Virus record (IMG/VR): IMGVR_UViG_3300044858_002079
Span: 1 to 34,804 of that record
DNA length: 34,804 bases
From: a virus
Reading direction: 5' to 3' (one strand)
Notes under the pieces: model-generated
Databases searched by the model: none
Told to the model about the DNA's origin: nothing
Seen by the model: only the letters and a program-made list of their open reading frames with translations
Shown here: positions 1,202 to 29,047 of the stretch, in pieces
Position numbering within the stretch: the stretch's first letter is position 1
Layout of the letters: the number at the start of each line of letters is the position of its first letter
Position numbers and translations under genes: made by a program

Positions 1202-3274
1202 TTACTTCACTTGGATTAGTACACGTTCCCATGCGTGACGGCAGTAGTGCGTTGTTCCGGACCCGTCCTTCCTTGTCCAAAAACCACCCCTCCGCTGCCA
1301 AACGTTGCGATCTTCTGACAAGCTCACACGGGTAATGTCGGCCTGACTCCATACGCGTGTTTTGGAAAGCTTGACCATTTTACGGCAGAACTCCCGCGTG
1401 GTGTCCATCACATCGGGGCCACTTACACCCATTCCAAGGACGTATCGGTATGCGATGGCGAATGAGGCTGGTAATGGTTTAACCGCTTGCATGGCCTGAT
1501 CGCCCGCGTTCGTGATCTTGGCCAGGCGTTGTTCCGAACCAATGACCGATGTTATCTCCAGTCGAAGGAAGCCCGCGTTGATGTTTCGATTGACAGCGGC
1601 TTGCACGGCATTAATGGTAGTCGATAGTGCGTCCGCCACCTCTTGCATCGGCATTGACGGGTTCTTTTTCAACTGTGCAAGCACGCCCATATCGAATGAA
1701 GTAGTTGGCGAATCGAACCCATAGGCCATCAGTTCACCCTCACGGGCTTGCATATCTTCGAGCGACAGGTAATGATCGAATCGGTGTGCCGCGATCACTT
1801 GGCCCGTATGTACTTCGGTGCCGCAAGCCGCGAAACGTGCTACAAGGCGTGAATCGGAATCCTGTGAGGACATTTCGACTGGGGCCGTTGGCGTAACGGG
1901 TAACGCGACCTTTCCTGTGACAATAGCCTGCGCCTGTTCGCGTGTGAATCCATACAACTCTATCATCAGTTCGATGGCCGAAGCCTCACCAATGATACCC
2001 TGTTGAACATTTTGAAGAACGGTAATAATACCTGTAACACCTCCGACTGTGCCCTTCAATGATGCCTGCGCATCGGCAGCGGTGGAGTCAATGTCAGTTG
2101 CAATAGGTGCCAGTCCCGACTTCGCCCGAATTTCATCAGGGGTCATAACACCCACTAAGGTCATTTCGCTGAACTCCTGCGCGATCGGTTCGGTCTGCTC
2201 GATGTCTATATTCTTCGGAACACCGTTAACGCCCGCAAGGTTATTGAACGCATCCAAAATGAATGCCTGACGCGCCTGAACGTAGGTCTTTTGGAACAGC
2301 TCGTAGCTATCCCTTATCTGATTGCGGGTAGCAAAGATTCCTTCGGGTTTGATACCGAACAAAGCAGGGTCAACAATGCGGTGCCCCGTGAAAATCTCCT
2401 TTTCAACCGTGCGATTGAGAATGTCGAAACGCTTGTCGAGGTCGTTTCCGCTGAGTTGGTTTATTTCAGGGCCTTGCTCTTTAGTGTCGTTGAAGGTCAG
2501 TAGTACTTTATTAGCATTGTCTGATCCTCCGAACTTGTCGATGATCTGTTGCTCGATTTTCTCTTTGTCTTCTTCGGTGGGCTGACCATTGAAGAAGTTG
2601 ATGATCGTTCCCGCCATAAATCCATTTTTGATACCGTTCAAATGGAAGTTGGCAATTTCACCGTCAAGCTCAATGTATGGTATTGCCCCGATGTACGATG
2701 GCAACGGGTAAACGGCTTTAGTCGGGTCGTATACCTTCAGATACAGGATAGACTTCTCAGCGGGCGTGTTGACGTTGAAAGTGGGTATAACGTCCACGTT
2801 GTCAGGCTGTGATTTCTTCCATCCATCAGCCGAATAGTACACAACCTTGCCATCCTTATCGAGGCGGCACTTGTTGAATGAGACGTGTGATAGCTTGGCT
2901 ATCTTCTTTCGAGTGCTGTTATAGATGACCTCGATGGCCGCACCGTTGAATAACTCAACGTCCAACGCGACCTGATCCAGCAACCGATCAAGATCCATCG
3001 ATTTGATGAAGTCCTGCGTCTCTGCCTCTTTAATGGTGTTCAGCCCGTCTTTCTTGACTTTAAGACCCCTACCTACAATGTAGTCAACCTTCCCCCTGAC
3101 GATGGCACCGTGTTTCGCGGAGGTGTTATACAGGTCAATGAGGTAGTCGGGGTATCTGTTGCGCCAGTCCTTGTCTGTGCCATACAGCACCCATTTTGAC
3201 GAAGGTATGACCTTCATTTCGGGCGCATGGTGCGCAGCGAATTTCAAATTGATGGACGATACGCGCTCACTCAT
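1202..3274 (-). CDS. portal protein with C-terminal extension
   Basis: The product is 690 residues. Residues about 20-450 have features of Bacteroidota phage portals: a WVLYGTDKDWRNRYPDYLID start, an early KVDYIVGRGLKV strand, an ELFNGAAIEVIYN core, the ILYLKVYDP/YPLPSYIGAIPYIE clip-like region and the ETV-like EKEIFTGHRIVDPALFGIK segment. It forms the dodecameric ring through which DNA is packaged. From about residue 470 an extension follows: a His-containing linker, a winged-helix-like stretch (about 540-600), then a tail ending in WQRRGGFWTRKDG and THYCRHAWERVLIQVK. Its start overlaps the preceding gene by 8 nt. Portal identity is confident; the meaning of the tail is not. Confidence 0.85.
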   Translation of the reverse strand: MSERVSSINLKFAAHHAPEMKVIPSSKWVLYGTDKDWRNRYPDYLIDLYNTSAKHGAIVRGKVDYIVGRGLKVKKDGLNTIKEAETQDFIKSMDLDRLLDQVALDVELFNGAAIEVIYNSTRKKIAKLSHVSFNKCRLDKDGKVVYYSADGWKKSQPDNVDVIPTFNVNTPAEKSILYLKVYDPTKAVYPLPSYIGAIPYIELDGEIANFHLNGIKNGFMAGTIINFFNGQPTEEDKEKIEQQIIDKFGGSDNANKVLLTFNDTKEQGPEINQLSGNDLDKRFDILNRTVEKEIFTGHRIVDPALFGIKPEGIFATRNQIRDSYELFQKTYVQARQAFILDAFNNLAGVNGVPKNIDIEQTEPIAQEFSEMTLVGVMTPDEIRAKSGLAPIATDIDSTAADAQASLKGTVGGVTGIITVLQNVQQGIIGEASAIELMIELYGFTREQAQAIVTGKVALPVTPTAPVEMSSQDSDSRLVARFAACGTEVHTGQVIAAHRFDHYLSLEDMQAREGELMAYGFDSPTTSFDMGVLAQLKKNPSMPMQEVADALSTTINAVQAAVNRNINAGFLRLEITSVIGSEQRLAKITNAGDQAMQAVKPLPASFAIAYRYVLGMGVSGPDVMDTTREFCRKMVKLSKTRVWSQADITRVSLSEDRNVWQRRGGFWTRKDGSGTTHYCRHAWERVLIQVK

Positions 3275-4727: not shown

Positions 4728-4750
4728 TTTTGTTCGGTCTTTGCGACTTA

Positions 4751-4774
4751 GGGGGCGGCTATCACACCGCCCCC
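4751..4774 (-). terminator. GC-rich hairpin after the major capsid gene
   Basis: GGGGGCGG and CCGCCCCC form a perfect 8-bp stem around an 8-nt loop, 14 nt past the major capsid stop codon. No U-tract follows on the minus strand, so it may be a weak terminator, or it may protect the 3' end of capsid mRNA from exonucleases. Together with the terminator at 4113-4146 it would keep capsid expression highest in the operon. Confidence 0.6.
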
Positions 4775-4787
4775 GTTGTCAGGTTCA

Positions 4788-5801
4788 TCAGAGTACGATC
4801 GCGGCTACTTCGCCTGGCAGGGCTATCTGCGTGGAGATTTTGAACTCCTGCGCAAATTTGACAACCCTGTCATCCTTCGAGTACCACACGTCAAACGCGG
4901 TGGTATCAGAGGCTCCATCCACACCGATGAAGACGTTGCTCTTCTTCGTGCCGTAGATGGCGTTGATGCTGTTCAGACCAGCCACAGGCAACACCTTGAG
5001 GTTAGTGCCTGGGAAGGTCAGCCCGCCCATGCGAGGATCAGGCGATCCTTGGAAGCCTCCGTTCAGGATGGCCCCGTAGGTTGCGCCACCAGCGATCAGC
5101 GATGCAACAAGGGCGGTGAACTTGTCATAGCCCATGTAGACGATCGTGTCATCGCCTTGATCGAGGCCGTTGTTTGCGAGAGCCATGTAGATCCTCATGC
5201 AAGCCTCTTGCATCGTGGACACGTTGAACGCTGCGATGGCAGACGAGTCATAAATGCTCGTGCTGTTCGCGTCAATGTACGTGCCGCCACCAATGGAGTC
5301 CTGAATCTGGAAGCGCAGACCGTCCCAGTAGGCGTTGTTTCCTGTACCCATCGGCACGGTCGAACCGACACCACCACCTGACGCGGTTATACGGGCCTGC
5401 CAGACGGCCTTGTCAACCTCCTGATTCACGATGTCAACGATGTAACTCGTGATCGCTTGGAAGATGGCCTCTGGGTCAACCTTCTCGCGCATTGCCCCTG
5501 CTGGGATTCCAGCGCGCAGGAAATACGGCTCAAAATCTTTCGGGCACCATTGCTGATTGATGCGCACCTTACCTGGCACCAGCAAGCGCTGAGTGATGGT
5601 AGTGTCACCTGTGGCGTTGAAACCGCAGGCATCGGTCTGAAAGTACACGGTCTGCGACAGGCGGGGCAACGCAGTATTGCCTTTGATGTTGTCCAGAACC
5701 GTTGCGTTCTGCATCATTTTGGCCCCGAACAGCGATGCTTTTACCAGCGGGTCTTGCCGCTCTTCAACATAGGCGGTTAAGCCTGCGAGATTGAGTCCCA
5801 T
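4788..5801 (-). CDS. major capsid protein (HK97 fold)
   Basis: The product is 337 residues. It follows the scaffold gene by 28 nt, as capsid genes usually do. The sequence has an N-terminal arm (LTAYVEERQDPLVKASLFGA), a helical spine region (VDPEAIFQAITSYIVDIVNQ, EVDKAVWQARI), an A-domain with FNVSTMQEACMRIYMALANN and VYMGYDKFTALVASLI, and a C-terminal strand pair (NVFIGVDGASDTTAFDVWYS). It assembles the icosahedral shell. The leader is A-rich (AACAACAACCAATC) with no Shine-Dalgarno sequence, as expected for a highly expressed Bacteroidota gene. Assignment rests on length, context and fold pattern. Confidence 0.85.
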   Translation of the reverse strand: MGLNLAGLTAYVEERQDPLVKASLFGAKMMQNATVLDNIKGNTALPRLSQTVYFQTDACGFNATGDTTITQRLLVPGKVRINQQWCPKDFEPYFLRAGIPAGAMREKVDPEAIFQAITSYIVDIVNQEVDKAVWQARITASGGGVGSTVPMGTGNNAYWDGLRFQIQDSIGGGTYIDANSTSIYDSSAIAAFNVSTMQEACMRIYMALANNGLDQGDDTIVYMGYDKFTALVASLIAGGATYGAILNGGFQGSPDPRMGGLTFPGTNLKVLPVAGLNSINAIYGTKKSNVFIGVDGASDTTAFDVWYSKDDRVVKFAQEFKISTQIALPGEVAAIVL

Positions 5802-5829
5802 GATTGGTTGTTGTTTTCTGAGTTAATGG

Positions 5830-6399
5830 TTAGTCGTTGATTCCGAAGATTGCCTTGTTCGCCACCTTGAGCTTGTCCTCCCACGACACATAGTCCTTCG
5901 AGAACTCAAAGGGTTTTGAATCGGGTTCGGTTGACGATGCGGCAGGTGCCTGTGCGATGTCCTGAACAACCGAGAACATGGACTTCAGCGAGTCGCGCAG
6001 TCCTGTGATCTCAGATTTCAGCGCAGCCATTTCGACCTTCGCAGCATCCAGTTCAGCCCTCATCGCGGCATCGGCCACGGGCGCGGGTGTCGGTTCGGTT
6101 GTTTTGGCCTCTTCAATCGGCTTGACCTCGGTGATTACACCGCCTGCGATGGTGAACACCGTGCCGTCCTGTGCTTCATGTGCGCCATCGGGTGCGGGTA
6201 TCTCTTTGCCCTCGCTGTCCATGATGGTAGCAGTAGCCCCAACTTCAAGGGCGGGCGATACGCTTACCTGTGTGCCGTCAACAAGGGTAACAGACGCGGC
6301 CTTTACCTCAACAGGTTCGGCAGGCGTTTCTTCACCGAAGATCAGTTTTTTGAGTTCTGGCAGCCGTTCGGCCACCTTCTCGCGGATAGACTTCTCCAT
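5830..6399 (-). CDS. scaffolding protein
   Basis: The product is 189 residues, acidic and low in complexity. Residues 1-20 are helical and charged, about 30-95 form a small beta domain (VTLVDGTQVSVSPALEVGA, DGTVFTIAGGVITEVKP), about 95-115 are a Pro/Ala/Thr linker, and about 112-150 are a coiled coil (AAMRAELDAAKVEMAALKSE). It sits between the protease and the capsid gene, as a scaffold does. The beta domain resembles one I recall in scaffold-like proteins of Bacteroidota phages. It should direct procapsid assembly and then be cleaved by the protease. Confidence 0.75.
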   Translation of the reverse strand: MEKSIREKVAERLPELKKLIFGEETPAEPVEVKAASVTLVDGTQVSVSPALEVGATATIMDSEGKEIPAPDGAHEAQDGTVFTIAGGVITEVKPIEEAKTTEPTPAPVADAAMRAELDAAKVEMAALKSEITGLRDSLKSMFSVVQDIAQAPAASSTEPDSKPFEFSKDYVSWEDKLKVANKAIFGIND

Positions 6400-6442
6400 G
6401 CCTGTATATGCGGCATGAATGTGCTTTGCCTAAATAGTCAAG

Positions 6443-6655
6443 TCATGGACACAATTTCATGCCCGAGCCATGCTCAAGCCACGTCAACTCATCCACCTCT
6501 ACCCATTCGGTGCCGCAGTCGTTCTCTACCTGAAATAGGAACGTGCGCCCGTTTGCTGTGGACGTGAAAGCGGTAGTATCGGTAATGATACCACACTCGC
6601 ATTTATCGGAGCATGATGCGAAAGCGAACAGGGCGGCAATGATGGCAATCCTCAT
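6443..6655 (-). CDS. small cysteine-rich lipoprotein
   Basis: The product is 70 residues. It begins MRIAIIAALFAFASCSDKCE: a short positive start, a hydrophobic stretch and a lipobox (FAS followed by Cys at residue 15), so signal peptidase II processing and membrane anchoring are predicted. Four further Cys residues lie in the mature part. Its ATG overlaps the protease stop codon (ATGA), so it is translated with head genes, although it is unlikely to be part of the head. Small phage lipoproteins often block superinfection or act in lysis; that role is inference. I know similar lipoprotein genes only loosely from Bacteroidota phages. Confidence 0.7.
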   Translation of the reverse strand: MRIAIIAALFAFASCSDKCECGIITDTTAFTSTANGRTFLFQVENDCGTEWVEVDELTWLEHGSGMKLCP

Positions 6656-15043: not shown

Positions 15044-16022
15044 TGCCCAAAAGTAATTGCAAGCGGTTGACATTCACACCATCCATTGACCAATCGCGTT
15101 CGATGTCTGCCCTGAGTGCCGCCCCACGTTGCGCAATCTCATCGGCACTCATGGCCTCCGCCTGCGCGATTGCCCGTTTCCAGTCGGTGACGTGAATTAC
15201 CCCATCAGACTTGAACGGAAAGTATGGGTGCATGGCCTGAACGAATATCGGCCTACCCTTTGCGCCCGCCTCAAGTATCTTTAGATTCGATTTGCATCGA
15301 TTGAAGGCTGTATCCGCCAATGGTGCGACCGCAATCGATATGTGGTCGTAGAATTTGCCGTAGTTCCAAACGTCCATCGCTGTGCCTACCTGAAAGGGCA
15401 GCTTCCCGTGGTCGCTCATCATTGCCGCCATCGCGGTGAACTCCTGTCGGTTGCTATCGTTCAGCCCACACAACAGCCGATTGCCAGTCCATCCGCGCCA
15501 CGCGCCAACGGTTAGGGCCATATCAGGTAGATGGGTTGCGCCTGCTATGTAGCCGATCGTGCGCACTTCGGGCAACGGTGTGACTTGCCATTGCTCATCT
15601 TGCAGGGCTATCGCGTTGGGCACAATGGACACGTTCGGATTGAGCGGCCTGCATCTCTGCGCCAACGCCTCATGCGTTACCCATACCGCATCAGCCTGTT
15701 CAACCGATCGGGCAATGTTCGGCCCTACTTTCTTGTGTTCGCGATAAAGGATGTGCGATGAGGGTAACACCCAATAGTCGTCAACATCGCATATCACTTT
15801 TACGCCCCGTGCCCTCAATTCGGGTATCACTTGCCCCGCCTCATCGCCCGCAAGGAAACGATTGAACACCACAACATCAACAGCAACAGCGTCAACATTC
15901 GCCAAAGGTATCGCGTTAAACCGCGTTACCTCATGGCCCTGCGCTGCCAAATGTTCAAATGGTCTTGTCAGTCGGTGGTAGTCAACACCGCCATCCCTTT
16001 CGGAAACGTAGCCTATCTTCAT
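15036..16022 (-). CDS. GT-B glycosyltransferase (GT4-like)
   Basis: The product is 328 residues. The N-terminal Rossmann-like half has MKIGYVSERDGGVDYHRL and the DVDDYW motif (79-84); VPNAI is at 134-138; the C-terminal half has the nucleotide-sugar signature DHISIAVAPLADTAFNRCKS and SNLKILEAGAKGRPIF (to about 260), typical of GT4-type enzymes. It transfers a sugar from a nucleotide donor to an unknown acceptor. Its ATG overlaps the terminase stop codon (ATGA), so it is co-translated with packaging genes, an unusual place for a glycosyltransferase. Likely targets are a virion protein or a host glycan; the sequence does not say which. Confidence 0.8.
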   Translation of the reverse strand: MKIGYVSERDGGVDYHRLTRPFEHLAAQGHEVTRFNAIPLANVDAVAVDVVVFNRFLAGDEAGQVIPELRARGVKVICDVDDYWVLPSSHILYREHKKVGPNIARSVEQADAVWVTHEALAQRCRPLNPNVSIVPNAIALQDEQWQVTPLPEVRTIGYIAGATHLPDMALTVGAWRGWTGNRLLCGLNDSNRQEFTAMAAMMSDHGKLPFQVGTAMDVWNYGKFYDHISIAVAPLADTAFNRCKSNLKILEAGAKGRPIFVQAMHPYFPFKSDGVIHVTDWKRAIAQAEAMSADEIAQRGAALRADIERDWSMDGVNVNRLQLLLGNG

Positions 16023-17191
16023 CGAATTGAGTATGTGCCTGATCTCGCTTTCAGTACTTCCATGATCGCGTACCGCGCGGCATCGATGGCGTGATTGTTC
16101 GCATCTTCGGGTTCGTTGGTTGCCGCACCCGCCTTATCCGTCTGCCAGCAATATGACCTTAGTTCGCGTATCAGGTCGATGCTGTCTGATGTGACGAACA
16201 TTCGCAGCCCCTGCATCTTCGCAATGCCTGCCCGAACGCTGTCGGGGCCTTTTACCGTTGGGCGTATCCTGAACCCGTGCCGCCTCAGTTCTTCAATGCT
16301 TTTCGGTTCGGCTGAGTCTGCTATTATCTCGCTGCCCTTCATCCATTGCAGTCGGTTCGCGATGTCGGTATTGATCAGCCCGCGTTCGTACATGACCTGC
16401 CGAAGATACACGTCCGTATCGTTGGCAATAGTGACCTCCACTACCGCTGTCTGGTCGTTTGAGAAACCCCAATCGAGGCCATAGATCCTGCGCCTGAACG
16501 ATTGCGGCACTTCGTCAACCTGTGACCAGTTATTGAACACAACGCCCTGCAATGAGCCGACTTCGCCAAGGCCGTACACGCGCCACCAATTAGACCAATA
16601 TGCAGAGGTCGCGGCACGGTCGCGGGCGGCCTCAATGTCTGCCCGTATGGTTGCGGGCAATGCCTCATTGTCGAGGTAGGTCAGTATCAAGTGTTGCGCA
16701 TCAGGTTGATTCAGCACCTCAGTATGCGCCCAAAATTCAGCGGTCGGGTTGAAGTCGATGTAGATGTCTCCACTCGTCCTGATTGCCAGCTGATAATAGC
16801 TGTCAAAGTCTATGTTGTTCGCTTCATTCATATAGAGGATTTCGCGCCTCGCCCCGCGCAACCTTGCCTCCTGATCGGCACTAAAAAACTCAATGTAGCT
16901 GCCGTTTGTGAACGAGTATGTGAGTAGCGTTCGGTTCCACCCATCTTCGCGCCATCGGTTAGTTGACTGCATGATCTTAGCGAAGTCCTTAATCGCACCC
17001 CTGCGCAAGTGCGGTACCGACTCGCTAACAACGCTTATCTCAGATCGCGGGTGCCGCGCTGCATGGTCTATGAGGACGGCCAATATGCCAAACGTCTTTG
17101 ATGCCGATGTGCCGCCCTGAATGACCTTTTTCCGCGCAGTCAGCCCGCGCAGCTTTCGGATCGCAGTAGTATAGATGAAGTCACTTGTCAC
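16019..17191 (-). CDS. terL: terminase large subunit
   Basis: The product is 390 residues. The ATPase half has Walker A GGTSASKT (26-33) and Walker B ILYMNEAN with the catalytic Glu at 123. The nuclease half has GLDWGFSND (D240), IIADSAEP (D292) and NNHAIDAARY (D370), the acidic triad of the RNase H-like domain. It pumps DNA into the procapsid and cuts it. It is short but has both domains. It overlaps the small subunit by 11 nt and the following glycosyltransferase by 4 nt. Confidence 0.95.
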   Translation of the reverse strand: MTSDFIYTTAIRKLRGLTARKKVIQGGTSASKTFGILAVLIDHAARHPRSEISVVSESVPHLRRGAIKDFAKIMQSTNRWREDGWNRTLLTYSFTNGSYIEFFSADQEARLRGARREILYMNEANNIDFDSYYQLAIRTSGDIYIDFNPTAEFWAHTEVLNQPDAQHLILTYLDNEALPATIRADIEAARDRAATSAYWSNWWRVYGLGEVGSLQGVVFNNWSQVDEVPQSFRRRIYGLDWGFSNDQTAVVEVTIANDTDVYLRQVMYERGLINTDIANRLQWMKGSEIIADSAEPKSIEELRRHGFRIRPTVKGPDSVRAGIAKMQGLRMFVTSDSIDLIRELRSYCWQTDKAGAATNEPEDANNHAIDAARYAIMEVLKARSGTYSIR

Positions 17192-21991: not shown

Positions 21992-22286
21992 CGAATGATC
22001 GGATAATTATGTACTCGCATCCCACCGCCTCAGCCACTCGTTGCCACTCAATCTGAGCGGGTGCCTGCCTGCCACCATCTGTTTTTAACTCGATGCACAG
22101 CGGGGGCTTGTTCGCCCGCAGGTAGATCATGTCGCTTACCCCTGCGACCATGCCCATCGCCTTCAATCGCGCACCGTCTATCTTGTTGCGCGGGGTGTTG
22201 TGTACCATGAATAATCGGCCTCGTTCGTTTGGTCGCGTGTTCCAATGCCACATAAAGCACTCCGCTTGTAATTTATCCTCGCTCAT
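21954..22286 (-). CDS. VRR-NUC domain nuclease
   Basis: The ATG at 22284-22286 overlaps the helicase stop as ATGA; the open frame upstream of it is a shadow of the helicase. The product is 110 residues and holds a complete VRR-NUC core: KLQAECFMWHWNTRP, GMVAGVSDM with D52, IELK (65-68) with the catalytic Glu-x-Lys, and the APAQIEW (Q78) motif with VRR-type QxxxxW spacing. Such stand-alone enzymes cut branched DNA. The coupling to the helicase suggests a role in fork or recombination processing. Confidence 0.85.
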   Translation of the reverse strand: MSEDKLQAECFMWHWNTRPNERGRLFMVHNTPRNKIDGARLKAMGMVAGVSDMIYLRANKPPLCIELKTDGGRQAPAQIEWQRVAEAVGCEYIIIRSFDEFKEAIHTANT

Positions 22287-23719
22287 TTCAATGTGTAATC
22301 TGTGTATGTGCAGTCGGCCATTTCTTGCTCCTGGCGATATACCCACCCGCGTGAGTATTTGAAGATTTCGCCGTAACGCCTTATTCCTTCGCGGCCCATA
22401 GACCGCGCAACCCTCCAACAGAAAGACGGCTTGTAACGCTTGCTCAGTTGAACCCGTGCAAGTTCCTCAATGGTCAGGCTGCTAATCTTTCGTCCTATCA
22501 GGTCATTGGGTATTTTTGGCCCTACTTCGACCATTTGACCTTGCTCCAATTCTTTTACCTCAAATGGGAACACGTATTCACAATAACGGCAAGTGCGGGC
22601 CGATGCGAACACTAACGCCTGACACGATGGGCACTCTTTAACGGGTGCCGCGCGTTCGGCCTTTTTTCTTGGCGGCGCGATAGTCCATCGCCTTGCCTCC
22701 GCCCAAAGGCCGTGCTGATCGTGATTCATTCCGAAGTCAAGGACGGTGAACTCCGACTTAACCCCGTCAATCACCCGCGACCCTCTACCGCAGCATTGAA
22801 GCCACAGGGGAAGTGATTTCGTGGCGCGGTTCATGACCACGCACTCAATCGTAGGCTCATCGTATCCCGTGGTCAATATCCCGCAGTTGTTCAGAACTTG
22901 AAACGCCCCTTGCCTGAACGCGGATAGTATCATGTCACGTTCGGGCTTTGGCGTTTCGGATGTCACGCACTCCGATGATATGCCAGCGTCACGGAACGCA
23001 TTGGTCATGTTGACCGTGTGGGCTATGTTGACATTGAATACGATAGTCTTTTTGCCCGATGCGCGCTTCTGCCAGTTATCAATTACACCATCGAACAGGC
23101 TCTGTTTGTTGTAGTGACCAAACAGACTCTCATCGGTGTACTCTCCCGCCTTCGTTTCAAGGTCTGACAGGTCTTGCACCATTTGAAACGGGCGGCACGT
23201 TGCGAGGTATCCTGAGTCAACAAGCTCTGGAATATCGATGTTCGCCACGATGTTCGTGTAGTACTTGTAAAAGTGTTTCCCGACAGGTGTTGCCGTTGCT
23301 CCAATTACCCGTGCATCACGCCAATGCTCAATAATCGGATTGAAGTTCGCCTTATGCGCCTCGTCAATGATGATCAGGTCGGGATTGTATTCGCCCATCT
23401 TCGGGAGCCTTCGTTTGACCGTTTCGACCATTCCAACGCTTATCAATGCGCGATGGTCGAATGCCTTTCTACCCGCCTCGATGCGCTGTGGGTTTACACC
23501 GACACGTCCCAACGCTCCGAACGTCTGACCGAATAGCTCAACCCGATCGGTCAGAACAAGGGTTTTCGTTCCGCGAATGGTAGCAAGTCGAACCATTTCT
23601 GAAAATACTACGGTTTTCCCCGCGCCCGTTGGCAGACAAAGCACCTGCCTCCTGTGCTGCCCAAAACCTGAACGCAGTTCAGCGATGGCCTCTGATTGGT
23701 ATGGTCGAAGGTGAATCAT
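22283..23719 (-). CDS. SF2 DEAD/DEAH helicase with zinc ribbon
   Basis: The product is 478 residues. Helicase motifs are in order: Walker A TGAGKT (31-36), DEAH (119-122), ATATP (141-145), and motif VI QCCGRGSR (308-315). After the core come paired cysteines CPSC (363-366) and CRYC (377-380), a zinc ribbon, then a basic C-terminal tail. It should remodel replication forks or recombination intermediates with ATP. It starts at the low edge of the candidate origin and is coupled to the VRR-NUC nuclease. Confidence 0.9.
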   Translation of the reverse strand: MIHLRPYQSEAIAELRSGFGQHRRQVLCLPTGAGKTVVFSEMVRLATIRGTKTLVLTDRVELFGQTFGALGRVGVNPQRIEAGRKAFDHRALISVGMVETVKRRLPKMGEYNPDLIIIDEAHKANFNPIIEHWRDARVIGATATPVGKHFYKYYTNIVANIDIPELVDSGYLATCRPFQMVQDLSDLETKAGEYTDESLFGHYNKQSLFDGVIDNWQKRASGKKTIVFNVNIAHTVNMTNAFRDAGISSECVTSETPKPERDMILSAFRQGAFQVLNNCGILTTGYDEPTIECVVMNRATKSLPLWLQCCGRGSRVIDGVKSEFTVLDFGMNHDQHGLWAEARRWTIAPPRKKAERAAPVKECPSCQALVFASARTCRYCEYVFPFEVKELEQGQMVEVGPKIPNDLIGRKISSLTIEELARVQLSKRYKPSFCWRVARSMGREGIRRYGEIFKYSRGWVYRQEQEMADCTYTDYTLK

Positions 23720-23923
23720 GTGTAACCTGTGTGTAACCTCTGATTTTTTTGACAGGTTACACCGCTAACCCCCGTAAACATTGGGGTTCTGCAATAGTGT
23801 AACCTTGTAACCTCTGAAAGTATATATATATGCACAAGGGGATATCATGATTCGCATGATGTGTGATGTATAGATTGTGGGGGTTAGTAAGGATGTTTGG
23901 GTAACACGGGTTACAAGTTACAC
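23720..23923. other. candidate replication origin (TGTAACCT repeats)
   Basis: This non-coding gap between the helicase and primase-helicase genes holds five exact TGTAACCT copies: 23721, 23732, 23798 and 23806 on the plus strand, and 23754-23761 inverted. Two of them extend to TGTAACCTCTGA (23732-23743 and 23806-23817). Weaker GTTACA and TGTAACCC matches continue to 23970. There is an alternating TA stretch (23820-23831), a DnaA-box-like ATATGCACA (23828-23836, one mismatch to TTATNCACA), and small hairpins AACCCC/GGGGTT (23767-23788) and TCATG/CATGA (23845-23859). Iterons beside a replication gene suggest an origin, or an operator for both genes. Confidence 0.5.
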
Positions 23924-26125
23924 TTAAAACGGCATATCATCCTGAGTATCAACGTTGTTACCTGTAACCCCACTTTCACCGTTCAGCCTAATGACGTGAT
24001 ACCTTTTGCCAACTACCCCCCTAACTCTGGTCACTTGTGCCTTGCCAAAAAGGTTGACAAGCTCAATACCAAACCGTTTGAGTGCCATGATGCGTTGCTT
24101 TGTTCCTGACTCAATCGCGTCCTTTATATCCGTTGATGTAAGCCACTCAGCATACCCACCACCTGATGAGACGGGAATAAAAAATTTGCATATCAATTCA
24201 CGCTCATACGGGGTTGTTTCAAAGTCAGCACCGACCCCCTCAAGATGGGCAAGTTCCTCACGGGTAAGGTTGAACGCTTCGCCCGCATCGTATAGCCTGA
24301 CTGCCTCCATGAATAGCTCATCCTTATCGATGGCGTTGTAGGCTTCGTGGTCAATGCTGATTACTCTGATAGGCAGTATGCGCGTGTTTCCAGTTGGGTC
24401 ATTTAATACCGCCTCCTCGTTGCTTGTTCCGCATAGGACTGCTAATCGTTTGTAGTCCTCATTGTGCCGCCCGTATGGTGCGCGTAGTGAAAAGGTTGAT
24501 TTTGATGTCAGTTCTTTTAGGCGTTTCTCGTCCTGTTTCGATTTGCCGCCCATTTCGTCATCCATGACCCATAGCTTTTGGCACATGAGTATTTCATCGT
24601 CCTTGCCCGCATCCAGTTTCGACTCCGCGTAGTACTTGCGAAGTGCAGATGGCGGCAACCGCCTAAACCATTCGGTTTTGCCCGTGTTCTGCCCACCTAA
24701 CAGGGTAAGAACCGACCTAACGGGGTGCCCGTCAAGTGCCGCGACCCATCCAATGACCCAACGCCTAATAAACATCTCATGGTTAGGCGTGTCTGTTTTA
24801 ATCGTATCGGCCAACGCTTTGATGTTGCCTGACGTATTTCGGTGCCTATTCCGATCGATGTACTCGCGGATAGGGTTGAAGTCGTTGGTGAAGTCGGAAA
24901 AAATTATCCGTTCGATCAGGTCAAACGTCACGTCCTTAGTGTCGAACACTCCACGGGCACGTAGAAAAATAGTGTTCAGTCGTTCCTTACTGACCTCATT
25001 GCCCACCTCCTCAAGTTTGCCTGTTATGCCGTTTCGCCTGATGGGGTGATTGGTTTTCAGAAATTCCATCAACCCTTCGATAAGGTTTTCGGGATTGTTA
25101 GACACTCGCTTCAAGTCGATGTCATCGCGTGACATAACCTCATCGACAATGCGTTCAGCCTGTTCCTTGCCGAAGCCTTCAAGTTGCACAAGCTGTTCCG
25201 CTATGGCTTCGGGTGCGCGGCCCGCGCGTTTTCCCAATGCGGCCACCTGAACTGCCCTTTGTGACTGCTGATTTTTCGGGGCGTGTATGCCGTTCTGCTT
25301 GAGCAGATAGTAAAGGGTGCCAACAGTAATCTTCGACTTGGCACCGACACGCAGACACTCGTTGTATTTCTTATCAGCCTGACTGCTGATGTACTTCGGT
25401 GACGGTTGGCACAGGGCGTGAAACATCGCGCGGCCAGACTCCCCAAAACCGTTAGCGATTGCGCACCCCATACGAAAGTAGGTCAGGTAGTCGGGGGCAA
25501 TGTCAATACCCAATCGCTGTACCTCCGCACACATTTCACCGACCACTGATTCAGGTAGCACCATTGCAAGTGCGGGCGGTGCTGATTTCGGTTCCGCTTT
25601 TACCTGTGACTTTTTCGCTTTCTCATTGATGAACAGGTCGGGGTCAAATGAGACATATCGAAGTGATGCTACACTCGATGGGGCTGGGTCAACAACTATC
25701 CCGAACCGCTTAAAATAGTAGTCCTGAATCCACCTGAATGATTCCTTGTGCTTATCGGGGTTGATCCGCACAAGTACGACAAGGCCGCGCCCCGATGCAG
25801 ACCCGAATAAGGCGTATGTGTATGGATCCTCATTCAGTTCGGTTCGATCGGTATATCCGTCAATGTCAATCGAAATGAATCCGCTGTGCTCAAGCATCAG
25901 TTCAGCCTTGCGCTCTCGAAAGGTGCCGCTCACGGTCACGCTTGGAAGGTTGCGCTTCATGCCATCGCGCACCTTTTTATCCTCAACCTTTCTTATCGCC
26001 TCAATCTGATCCTTCCATTTTCCGAAACGAACGGCACTCAGGAAGTCGGAAATGGTTGTCTGCTCATCGGCAATGTGCGGCCTGTCCTTTTCGGGCAATC
26101 GCTTGAATAGGCTAATGTTGGCCAT
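23924..26125 (-). CDS. VapE/BT4734-type primase-helicase
   Basis: The product is 733 residues from the ATG at 26123-26125 (an earlier start at 26176 is open but less family-like). The N-terminal BT4734/VirE_N domain has GFISIDIDGY with D87 and D89, and SGRG (111-114), the catalytic motifs of a small archaeo-eukaryotic-type primase, plus RYVSFDPDLF. A middle region (about 195-340) is helical. The C-terminal SF3-like VirE ATPase has Walker A GGQNTGKT (477-484) and Walker B LWVMDDEMGG (518-527), then the winged-helix end with DMPF. It should prime and unwind phage DNA. The iteron gap at its 3' side fits an origin. Confidence 0.88.
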   Translation of the reverse strand: MANISLFKRLPEKDRPHIADEQTTISDFLSAVRFGKWKDQIEAIRKVEDKKVRDGMKRNLPSVTVSGTFRERKAELMLEHSGFISIDIDGYTDRTELNEDPYTYALFGSASGRGLVVLVRINPDKHKESFRWIQDYYFKRFGIVVDPAPSSVASLRYVSFDPDLFINEKAKKSQVKAEPKSAPPALAMVLPESVVGEMCAEVQRLGIDIAPDYLTYFRMGCAIANGFGESGRAMFHALCQPSPKYISSQADKKYNECLRVGAKSKITVGTLYYLLKQNGIHAPKNQQSQRAVQVAALGKRAGRAPEAIAEQLVQLEGFGKEQAERIVDEVMSRDDIDLKRVSNNPENLIEGLMEFLKTNHPIRRNGITGKLEEVGNEVSKERLNTIFLRARGVFDTKDVTFDLIERIIFSDFTNDFNPIREYIDRNRHRNTSGNIKALADTIKTDTPNHEMFIRRWVIGWVAALDGHPVRSVLTLLGGQNTGKTEWFRRLPPSALRKYYAESKLDAGKDDEILMCQKLWVMDDEMGGKSKQDEKRLKELTSKSTFSLRAPYGRHNEDYKRLAVLCGTSNEEAVLNDPTGNTRILPIRVISIDHEAYNAIDKDELFMEAVRLYDAGEAFNLTREELAHLEGVGADFETTPYERELICKFFIPVSSGGGYAEWLTSTDIKDAIESGTKQRIMALKRFGIELVNLFGKAQVTRVRGVVGKRYHVIRLNGESGVTGNNVDTQDDMPF

Positions 26126-26236
26126 GAAAAGCATAAGGGGGCCGCGTGACAAGCGCGGAAACAGGCCTGCCACCATGAGCGCAGCACCTATTTACTTCCC
26201 CCTGTATTAAGTTGTTCCTGTGGGTTTCATGGATTT

Positions 26237-26584: not shown

Positions 26585-26926
26585 TCAGAACGGCAAAGAA
26601 TCGCCATCGGGACTGATCGGCTCAGGGGTGTTCGATGCGGGAATGTTGGCGGGCGGCTGCATCCGTTCAGCAACGGTAACCTTCCACCCCGTGATCGAAG
26701 GGAAGTACCGCCCATTGTATTCGCGGCCTCCGATGTTCACCTCAACAGTCACACGTTGGCCGACCGTGACCTGATCCAATAAGGCGCACTTGTCTTTTTT
26801 GAACTCGATCGGGCAGAGGTTGTCGTACTTATCGGCTGTTTCGACCACAAGCAAACGCTTCTGAAACCCGTTCGATCCGATCGATTCTGTTTGTCCAACG
26901 TATCGGACGGTTCCTTCAATCTGCAT
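26585..26926 (-). CDS. DUF3127-type SSB-like protein
   Basis: The product is 113 residues. It has the OB-fold pattern of DUF3127: QIEGTVRYVGQTESIGSNGF, LLVVETADKYDNLCPIEFKK, GQRVTVEVNIGGREYNGRYF and a final strand GWKVTVAE. The tail is Pro/Ser-rich and ends in DGDSLPF, like the acidic SSB C-terminus that recruits replication proteins. Single-stranded DNA binding is therefore likely. It sits between the recombination genes and the primase-helicase. Confidence 0.75.
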   Translation of the reverse strand: MQIEGTVRYVGQTESIGSNGFQKRLLVVETADKYDNLCPIEFKKDKCALLDQVTVGQRVTVEVNIGGREYNGRYFPSITGWKVTVAERMQPPANIPASNTPEPISPDGDSLPF

Positions 26927-28122: not shown

Positions 28123-28368
28123 TTAGCCGCGAACGACACTCAAGGCGTTTATTAATTGGGTGGACAGTTCCATGTAAAACTTACCCTTATCAATATCTTG
28201 ACCATTTGATTTCAAGGCAAGCTCTTTTATGTGTTCGTTCGCAAACCAAATTTCAGTCAATGAGTATTGCCTTTTATTGTTGGCAATCTCATTCCAAAGA
28301 TCGACCAACGATTGAAAGTCGTTCGTTGCGTCCGCGTCCTTAAGGATCTGTGTGATAGTCCTACTCAT
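28123..28368 (-). CDS. hypothetical protein
   Basis: The start at 28368 (MSRTITQILKDADATNDFQS) overlaps the YqaJ gene by 8 nt and is preferred to 28389. The product is 81 residues and helical (LVDLWNEIANNKRQYSLTEI, then ANEHIKELALKS). It has no recognised family. It ends the operon driven by element C. Confidence 0.55.
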   Translation of the reverse strand: MSRTITQILKDADATNDFQSLVDLWNEIANNKRQYSLTEIWFANEHIKELALKSNGQDIDKGKFYMELSTQLINALSVVRG

Positions 28369-29047
28369 CACTCCCCTGAATTTCCCCACCCCCCAACGCC
28401 TCCATGTATTCGGAAACTGGCATCCCCGCTGACTTATCCTGATAGTCAGCGATCACCTTCTCAACATCGGCCTCGAATTTCTTAGCCGCCTGTTCGATCA
28501 GGGCGTGATAGGCGGGGTCTGCCTCTACGCGAACGACCTGCATCGGCATACCATTAGCGAACGAAATGAAGTCGCACCATTCGCGGCCCGTGACCCAGAG
28601 GCCAGTCTGAATTTGCGCGATATGTTCATTCGGAACCACCCCGCTCGCGATCCGTTCGACCTGAATCCTTGACTTGGCGGACTTGATCTCAATGATGCCG
28701 TCACCGCCCACAAGACCATCGGGCGAATAACCCACAAGGAATCCCAAGCGGTCGTTCGTAACGAACCCACACTCCTTCACTGGGTAGTAGTGCAGCGCGT
28801 ACAATTCACGCGCCCTCACCTCTTCCAATTGGCCGCGCATCATGTCGAAGGATTGGAATGTTTCATCGGTTCGGTTGTTGATCCGCTGTGCCGCAATCTC
28901 GTAAACGTGCGCCCTTACTTTGTCGTTGTCGGCCAACTTTCCCGTTGGCGTGATAAGCGTTTTGATGGCGGTCGTTGTCAGCACCCCGCGCCTGATAGCG
29001 TGCCATTCGGGGGTGCCTTGTTCGATGTCGAAGTGGTAGTGGGTCAT
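28361..29047 (-). CDS. YqaJ-type exonuclease
   Basis: The product is 228 residues. It matches YqaJ viral recombinases (lambda exonuclease fold): QGTPEWHAIRRGVLTTTAIK near the start, RGQLEEVRARELYALHYYP, and the catalytic SPDGLVGGDGIIEIKSAK with D110, E120 and K122. It should resect double-strand ends for recombination. The start codon is 7 nt after the TTTG of element C, so its mRNA may be nearly leaderless. Confidence 0.9.
   Translation of the reverse strand: MTHYHFDIEQGTPEWHAIRRGVLTTTAIKTLITPTGKLADNDKVRAHVYEIAAQRINNRTDETFQSFDMMRGQLEEVRARELYALHYYPVKECGFVTNDRLGFLVGYSPDGLVGGDGIIEIKSAKSRIQVERIASGVVPNEHIAQIQTGLWVTGREWCDFISFANGMPMQVVRVEADPAYHALIEQAAKKFEADVEKVIADYQDKSAGMPVSEYMEALGGGEIQGSDE

Follow-up and report, generated by a model that had tools for sequence, protein, structure and literature searches.

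A mixed-orientation TGTAACC iteron array behind a phage primase-helicase gene as a probable replication origin

In the SaPI/PICI satellites, the origin lies immediately 3' of rep and has two iteron sets around an AT-rich stretch, as the account of the pri-rep-ori arrangement in PMC6092414 describes it. According to PMC7581432, SaPI Rep and the SCCmec protein Cch2 bind such repeats through a C-terminal domain; the SaPI/PICI initiator is sometimes fused to a primase. Cch2 is a D5-type helicase, its isolated C-terminal domain binds three short repeats directly downstream of its gene, and the primase of that system is a separate polymerase pair (PMC7581432). For pRN1, the passages on the origin in PMC4234260 describe a required 100-bp stem-loop, without iterons, directly 3' of the gene of ORF904, a protein with primase, SF3 helicase and winged helix. 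The NrS-1 primase-polymerase starts sequence-specifically on TTTGGTTA, a priming site on single strands that is read by a helix-bundle domain (as outlined in PMC8718748). In the PLE elements, the DNA-binding domain of the RepA initiator covaries with the origin, and phage ICP1 encodes Odn, a T5orf172 nuclease that has borrowed an initiator-like domain, cuts satellite origins and needs the iterons for cutting; the authors of that work propose that Odn causes selection for the exchange of origin and initiator domain (the relevant parts of PMC8263062). The wing of the winged-helix protein RFX1 reads the major groove (PMC4333399). Within the open-access literature (most subscription journals lie outside it), we found no report of an origin of the type described below in BT4734/VapE phages and none of covariation between wing and iterons.

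The window, by which we mean the whole stretch of 34,804 bp that was analysed, encodes a portal protein (1202-3274) and a large terminase (16019-17191), and the record is therefore a tailed phage. A PICI has no capsid or packaging genes of its own; thus, the origin proposed here would work in a PICI-like way although the element itself is no PICI. The features that concern us are as follows.

22283-23719, minus strand: ResIII/DEAD helicase gene, downstream of the array
23716-23970, no strand: proposed replication origin and iteron array (end of the primase gene, 204-bp gap and start of the helicase gene), from repeats and comparison
23721-23727, plus strand: exact TGTAACC iteron
23732-23738, plus strand: exact TGTAACC iteron, member of the 12-bp repeat TGTAACCTCTGA together with 23806
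23755-23761, minus strand: exact TGTAACC iteron
23798-23804, plus strand: exact TGTAACC iteron
23806-23812, plus strand: exact TGTAACC iteron, in tandem with 23798
23821-23831, no strand: TATATATATAT tract between the inner iteron groups, likely melting site
23900-23906, minus strand: iteron with one mismatch (TGTTACC)
23909-23915, minus strand: exact TGTAACC iteron
23916-23922, minus strand: iteron with one mismatch (TGTAACT)
23956-23962, plus strand: iteron with one mismatch (TGTTACC), within primase coding sequence
23963-23969, plus strand: exact TGTAACC iteron, within primase coding sequence
23924-26176, minus strand: primase-helicase and proposed initiator, 750 aa, with BT4734-like_N, PriCT_2 and VapE-like domain
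23987-24208, minus strand: predicted winged helix, primase residues 657-730, with wing residue 722 at 24011-24013

The heptamer TGTAACC occurs seven times in the window, always within the 249 bp from 23721 to 23969. The array starts at the start codon of the helicase gene and ends within the last codons of the primase-helicase gene, whose stop codon is 23924-23926, and it therefore lies immediately 3' of the proposed initiator gene. Counted from this stop, copies stand at +2 to +18 and at +112 to +120, with the TA run between them. The 8-mer TGTAACCT is found exactly five times in the whole window, all at 23721-23813 (23721+, 23732+, 23754-, 23798+ and 23806+), against an expectation of 0.54, and five copies were reached in 0 of 100 dinucleotide shuffles of the window; none of the 60 densest 8-mers in the window occurs more than twice per 100 bp, overlapping parts of the TGTAACCT repeat aside. 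A preliminary description of this DNA had pointed out these five copies in 93 bp and in both orientations, the extension of two of them to 12 bp (23732-23743 and 23806-23817), the alternating TA stretch (23821-23831, separating the two inner iteron groups) and small hairpins, and all of these were recovered. The hairpins correspond to inverted repeats at 23720-23730/23752-23762 (11 nt, 100%) and 23908-23922/23956-23970 (15 nt, 87%), the arms of which, at both ends of the array, are themselves iterons; folded as single-stranded DNA, the 255-nt array is more stable than its own shuffles (z = -2.42). The description nevertheless understated the element, which is larger and comprises seven exact TGTAACC copies plus three with one mismatch. 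Its near DnaA box was not confirmed: a DnaA-dependent iteron origin of the plasmid type would carry such a box, and none (TTATCCACA, at most one mismatch) lies in the array region, the window as a whole having 6 against 6.61 expected. A role of DnaA is thus without support, and an origin of that type was rejected. GC skew, proposed there as a check near 23.8 kb, has no switch at that position in the window and was dropped as support for an origin.

Two further genes on the minus strand lie nearby, one for a DUF3127 protein (26585-26926), whose counterparts in related phages have an annotation for binding of single-stranded DNA, and one for a YqaJ-type recombinase (28361-29047); the array thus sits in a replication and recombination block.

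The array has the layout of the SaPI/PICI satellite origins, with iterons directly 3' of the initiator gene and on both sides of an AT-rich stretch, here only moderately AT-rich (lowest 40-bp GC 0.28), and with a primase-helicase as the proposed initiator. In whole-protein comparison by Foldseek, the best match of the model is PDB 7pds, PriRep1 with double-stranded DNA (E 7.8e-16, 16% identity, 438 columns), which we take to be a SaPI5 protein; together with the VapE-like domain, this places the relation to the SaPI/PICI initiators at the level of the fold only. As regards binding through the C-terminal domain, described for those initiators, the comparison gives a winged-helix prediction and covariation only. 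The window differs in belonging to a tailed phage, in its BT4734-like_N primase domain, in an array that overlaps the gene end and in its iteron letters. With pRN1 it shares the position of the element, directly behind the gene of a protein with primase, SF3 helicase and winged helix, but in the window iterons dominate in place of a long stem-loop. Cch2 resembles the window protein in helicase type and in the position of its repeats, which are of other sequence. The NrS-1 site and the reversed iteron have GGTTA in common, and an NrS-1-like protein (L118) adjoins a TGTAACC cluster. From these sequence comparisons and those that follow, we consider it very likely that the array is the replication origin of the phage and is bound by the winged-helix C-terminus of the adjacent primase-helicase.

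The relatives keep the plan of the array and change its letters. Searching phage records with the array by blastn gave one trivial match only, so the spelling is useless as a search key here. Between the window and its relative L003, iteron bases of the gap changed in 0 of 42 cases and other bases in 14 of 162. In relatives whose primases are about 65% identical (L004-L021), the gap has no TGTAACC array, and most of them have CCTACTACA/TGTAGTAGG-type repeats instead. We pooled the best 80 of 530 relatives from an alignment-seeded scan with earlier loci and the window, which gave 88 proteins, 47 of them non-redundant at 92% identity; L020 was left out because its contig ends within the gene. 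By de novo k-mer search around the primase stop, 26 of the 47 have significant iterons and 21 have none, 12 of the latter with a shortened wing; for comparison, other long ORFs of these loci gave 0 of 45 at their 3' ends. The spellings include TGTAGTAGG, TTAATAGG, GGTAGTAA, GGTAAC, TGTAACGGG, GGTAACAG and GGTGGTA. Over 22 scored loci (three further loci had too few sites), a mean of 0.68 of the sites fell into the window's slots, where random sites reached 0.22, with orientation labels of non-TGTA motifs assigned by the analyst. In L006, all eight TGTAGTAGG copies lie within 10 bp of the window's slots and in the same orientation; the slot plan does not hold for L312, L313, L314, L319 and L320. 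All iteron copies within a relative are respelled jointly while the slots stay. By the preliminary description, the origin would be refuted if relatives of like gene order lacked the repeats. The letters are indeed absent at 65% identity, but the array is kept, with another iteron in its slots.

TGTAACC clusters are also found elsewhere. The 16-mer TGTAACCTTGTAACCT matches 104 viral loci, 54 of which have at least five TGTAACC per 300 bp, compared with 0 of the 88 viral loci matched by the reversed 16-mer. Dense clusters were likewise found for TGTTACCTTGTTACCT (46 among the 120 matches listed) and TGTGACCTTGTGACCT (7 of 28 viral loci). After same-strand clusters and those close to contig ends had been dropped, 29 of 40 clusters for TGTAACCTTGTAACCT had the 3' end of a long ORF (at least 300 codons) no more than 150 bp away, and 3 of 40 had a 5' end there; the 3' counts were 29 of 37 for TGTTACCTTGTTACCT, among the matches listed, and 5 of 5 for TGTGACCTTGTGACCT. 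The random expectation for such a 3' end is 0.13-0.16 (0.16 for the set of 40). Twenty neighbouring large ORFs were scanned: 14 belong to primase or helicase families, four had no match, one is Thy1 and one a terminase. The primases and helicases beside the clusters have many architectures (VapE, DUF5906 + DUF3854, DUF927 + Prim-Pol, AAA_25, DnaG-type, NrS-1-like, Prim-Pol + PriCT_1 and others) and are partly related, most being connected through common domains in single-linkage BLAST. The PF05272 profile matched only 13 of the 50 records searched; thus, VapE is not the sole partner of TGTAACC clusters. Among ten named phages, four have significant iterons behind the primase, namely Silvanus (GGTTACA, 7 copies), Psp6 (GGTAAC, 8), phiFL4A (GTATCCA, 10) and pippi8-1 (TGGAACA, 7), and the k-mer test found none there in the other six (SppYZU01, Scuro, ECO1230-10, P12024L, phi46:1 and mumin9-1). 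A three-copy pattern is matched by 65 loci of bacterial and archaeal genomes. Some of these are clusters of mixed orientation and range from an Archaeoglobales contig to Niallia; the former (L254) has seven TGTAACC in both orientations.

Arrays on one strand were also seen. TGTAACC tandems with all or nearly all of their dense copies on one strand occur in Bacteroidota and Verrucomicrobiota contigs, with several contigs per genome (L218, L221, L222, L240, L242, L260, L278 and others). They probably have nothing to do with these origins and represent a tandem repeat dispersed in the chromosome. Six viral loci (L030, L047, L059, L092, L101 and L123) have six same-strand TGTAACC in about 90 bp with no long ORF ending there, and these arrays are of another kind.

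A winged helix is predicted for primase residues 657-730, in the model of the whole protein as well as in a separate model of the C-terminus, the latter with pLDDT above 90 across most of the core. VIA-align returned mostly winged-helix proteins for this part, with RFX5 first (Z 6.9, rmsd 3.8, 77 aligned), several Fur/Zur rows close behind and RFX1 with DNA (1dp7) at Z 5.5; all rows have Z below 8, which indicates a common fold only, and we claim nothing beyond "winged helix". When the C-terminal fragment was searched by Foldseek, no match under E 0.001 was returned. When all 722 alignment columns were ranked as predictors of iteron class (GTRGTA or not), wing residue 722 came first, with a leave-one-out accuracy of 0.85, and 7 of the top 20 columns fall within residues 655-735 (11% of columns). 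P or S at this slot goes with GTRGTA in 25 of 26 loci, the exception being L320, for an iteron class and a slot that were both picked after seeing the data. On the tree of the remaining protein, the wing state changes six times and the iteron state seven times; five independent contrasts fall on supported branches, and these agree or show no difference, with none opposed (sign test 0.0625). The rule was registered before new loci were fetched. Twenty contigs, chosen by eye as unseen, entered as 23 loci (three contigs twice); six loci were at most 92% identical to earlier ones, five of these had an iteron call, and all five agree with the rule, only one of them as a positive case. The most telling pair is the new locus L540, with T at the wing slot and GGTTGTA, versus its relative L296, with P and GTAGTA. 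It is therefore plausible, on this statistical link, that the wing of the initiator contributes to iteron specificity.

A different rule, that iterons are absent where the wing is shortened (iterons in 0 of 12 versus 26 of 35), was rejected, since on the tree it comes down to some three events only and is opposed by the new locus L541, which has a shortened wing yet contains a 9-mer five times. Among NrS-1-like primases, wing slot and iteron differ together in L118 (GKTHR/TGTAACC), L479 (GKSHR/TGTGACC) and L381 (GYPHR/TGTTACC), which suggests, in small numbers, that the slot matters outside the window's family too. The NrS-1-like primases of two named phages read GTPHR/GGTAAC (L632, Psp6) and GQAHR/TGTAACC (L633, Silvanus). 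A GKTxR wing motif in six proteins beside TGTAACC clusters is only a lead, and a G-x-N-Q-[KR] wing is common to L390 (DUF5906-side, beside TGTTACC) and the VapE proteins L289, L298 and L350 (GGTAAC/TGTTACC).

The preliminary description had left two functions side by side, an iteron origin and an operator of a replication protein. The former is favoured by the slots kept under other spellings, by the position 3' of primase-helicases and by the SaPI/PICI precedent. The latter, in which a regulator or the primase would bind the repeats to control the helicase gene (start 23719) while replication starts elsewhere, has lost ground and is unlikely. The array does adjoin the helicase start codon in the window and in relatives such as L004 and L006, and an initiator bound there could regulate besides replicating, but in L090, L091, L100 and L109 the helicase gene comes before the primase and the cluster is still at the primase 3' end. 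The cluster thus tracks the primase end and not the helicase start, which argues against a helicase operator, and as the main function this was rejected. The excess of clusters at 3' over 5' ends of long ORFs points the same way, and seven to ten sites around an AT tract exceed the usual operator.

That the initiator recognises a structure of the gap, as at pRN1, and not the iteron letters is quite improbable. The iteron-armed inverted repeats at both ends and the favourable fold of the strand would suit such an origin, as would the pRN1 precedent itself, but a hairpin requires neither the direct tandem copies at 23798/23806 nor groups in the same orientation. Moreover, the copies change spelling jointly and the change tracks a wing residue, and the fold may be a by-product of arms that are themselves iterons; a pure stem-loop origin was rejected on the ground that the inverted repeats are built from iterons. 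Repeat arrays of this size also serve packaging, partition and recombination, and a site of this kind, bound by some other protein, would be a further explanation, but a very improbable one: the adjoining genes belong to replication and recombination, the large terminase gene is at 16019-17191, and what recurs beside the clusters from virus to virus is a primase or helicase gene.

Under the origin reading, we infer binding, melting, priming and origin activity as follows. The primase-helicase would use its C-terminal winged helix to bind the TGTAACC iterons that follow or overlap the end of its own gene, with the wing contributing specificity. The bound copies, in opposite orientations, would flank the TATATATATAT tract, and SF3/VapE-type helicase rings would probably assemble on both sides of it, melt the tract and allow DNA synthesis to be primed, with the neighbouring helicase and the DUF3127-domain protein assisting.

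Some relatives have a gene for a T5orf172-type nuclease close to the primase, within the gap in L007, L008, L009 and L017 and directly behind the primase in L024 and in the cultured Flavobacterium phage mumin9-1 (L128). The T5orf172/MUG113 nuclease genes located at the proposed origin of relatives or close to it are the following.

L007, 5433-6038
L017, about 5415-6017
L024, 3521-4057
L128 (mumin9-1), 4738-5301
L305, about 5449-5943
L331, about 1169-1657
L346, about 2296-2784
L437, about 5987-6535

Profiles of the primase winged helix, run against 4,220 other ORFs, match the nucleases of L331 (1.6e-9), L346 (3.7e-9), L437 (2.9e-7), L128 (2.8e-5) and L024 (0.006), and in the same ORF set those of L007, L017 and L305 were unmatched. 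Pairwise BLAST of a nuclease against the primase of its own phage, with default statistics, gave weak matches for L128 (0.002), L024 (0.061) and L007 (0.17), while L017 and L305 had no match. The nucleases of L331 and L346, in the short-wing clade, share the short wing, and their genes precede the primase instead of following it. The window has no T5orf172 relative, and nuclease queries match only the C-terminus of its primase. By this sequence similarity, the nucleases with a primase-type C-terminus (L331, L346, L437, L128 and, weakly, L024) are candidate Odn-like origin-directed nucleases. The PLE/Odn system, in which initiator domain and origin covary as they do in the window's family, differs in its RepA_N initiator, its iterons of about 30 bp and a nuclease that comes from a rival phage (as far as PMC8263062 describes it), while the putative nuclease genes in our relatives lie beside the primase of their own phage. 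By analogy with Odn, origin-directed nucleases may drive iteron turnover in the window's family.

Since the DNA for the reading domain lies next to the sites that this domain would read, a single short recombination event might swap the two together. Tentatively, and with some doubt on our part, the wing may carry a compact, partly portable iteron code that has been rewritten repeatedly together with the iterons in place, at least partly under pressure from origin-directed nucleases; the opposing enzymes would be the T5orf172 nucleases with an initiator-type winged helix that lie beside the primase in some relatives. The wing code is plausible, and its nuclease-driven version is offered as a hypothesis. 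The kind of element is ordinary, an initiator-bound iteron origin, but its setting is unexpected, and the natural record of joint change in origin and initiator is unusually clear. If these readings are true, the SaPI/PICI origin plan would be used by many tailed phages and not by satellites alone, and such origins would be recognisable by sequence alone as mixed-orientation 7-9-mers behind a primase-helicase gene. The family would then provide many natural initiator/origin pairs that differ at few wing residues, so that the joint change of an initiator and many identical sites would be directly testable and the pairs would be candidate orthogonal replicons. The linked T5orf172 nucleases would, in turn, extend origin-directed cutting of the Odn type to a wider field of phage conflict.
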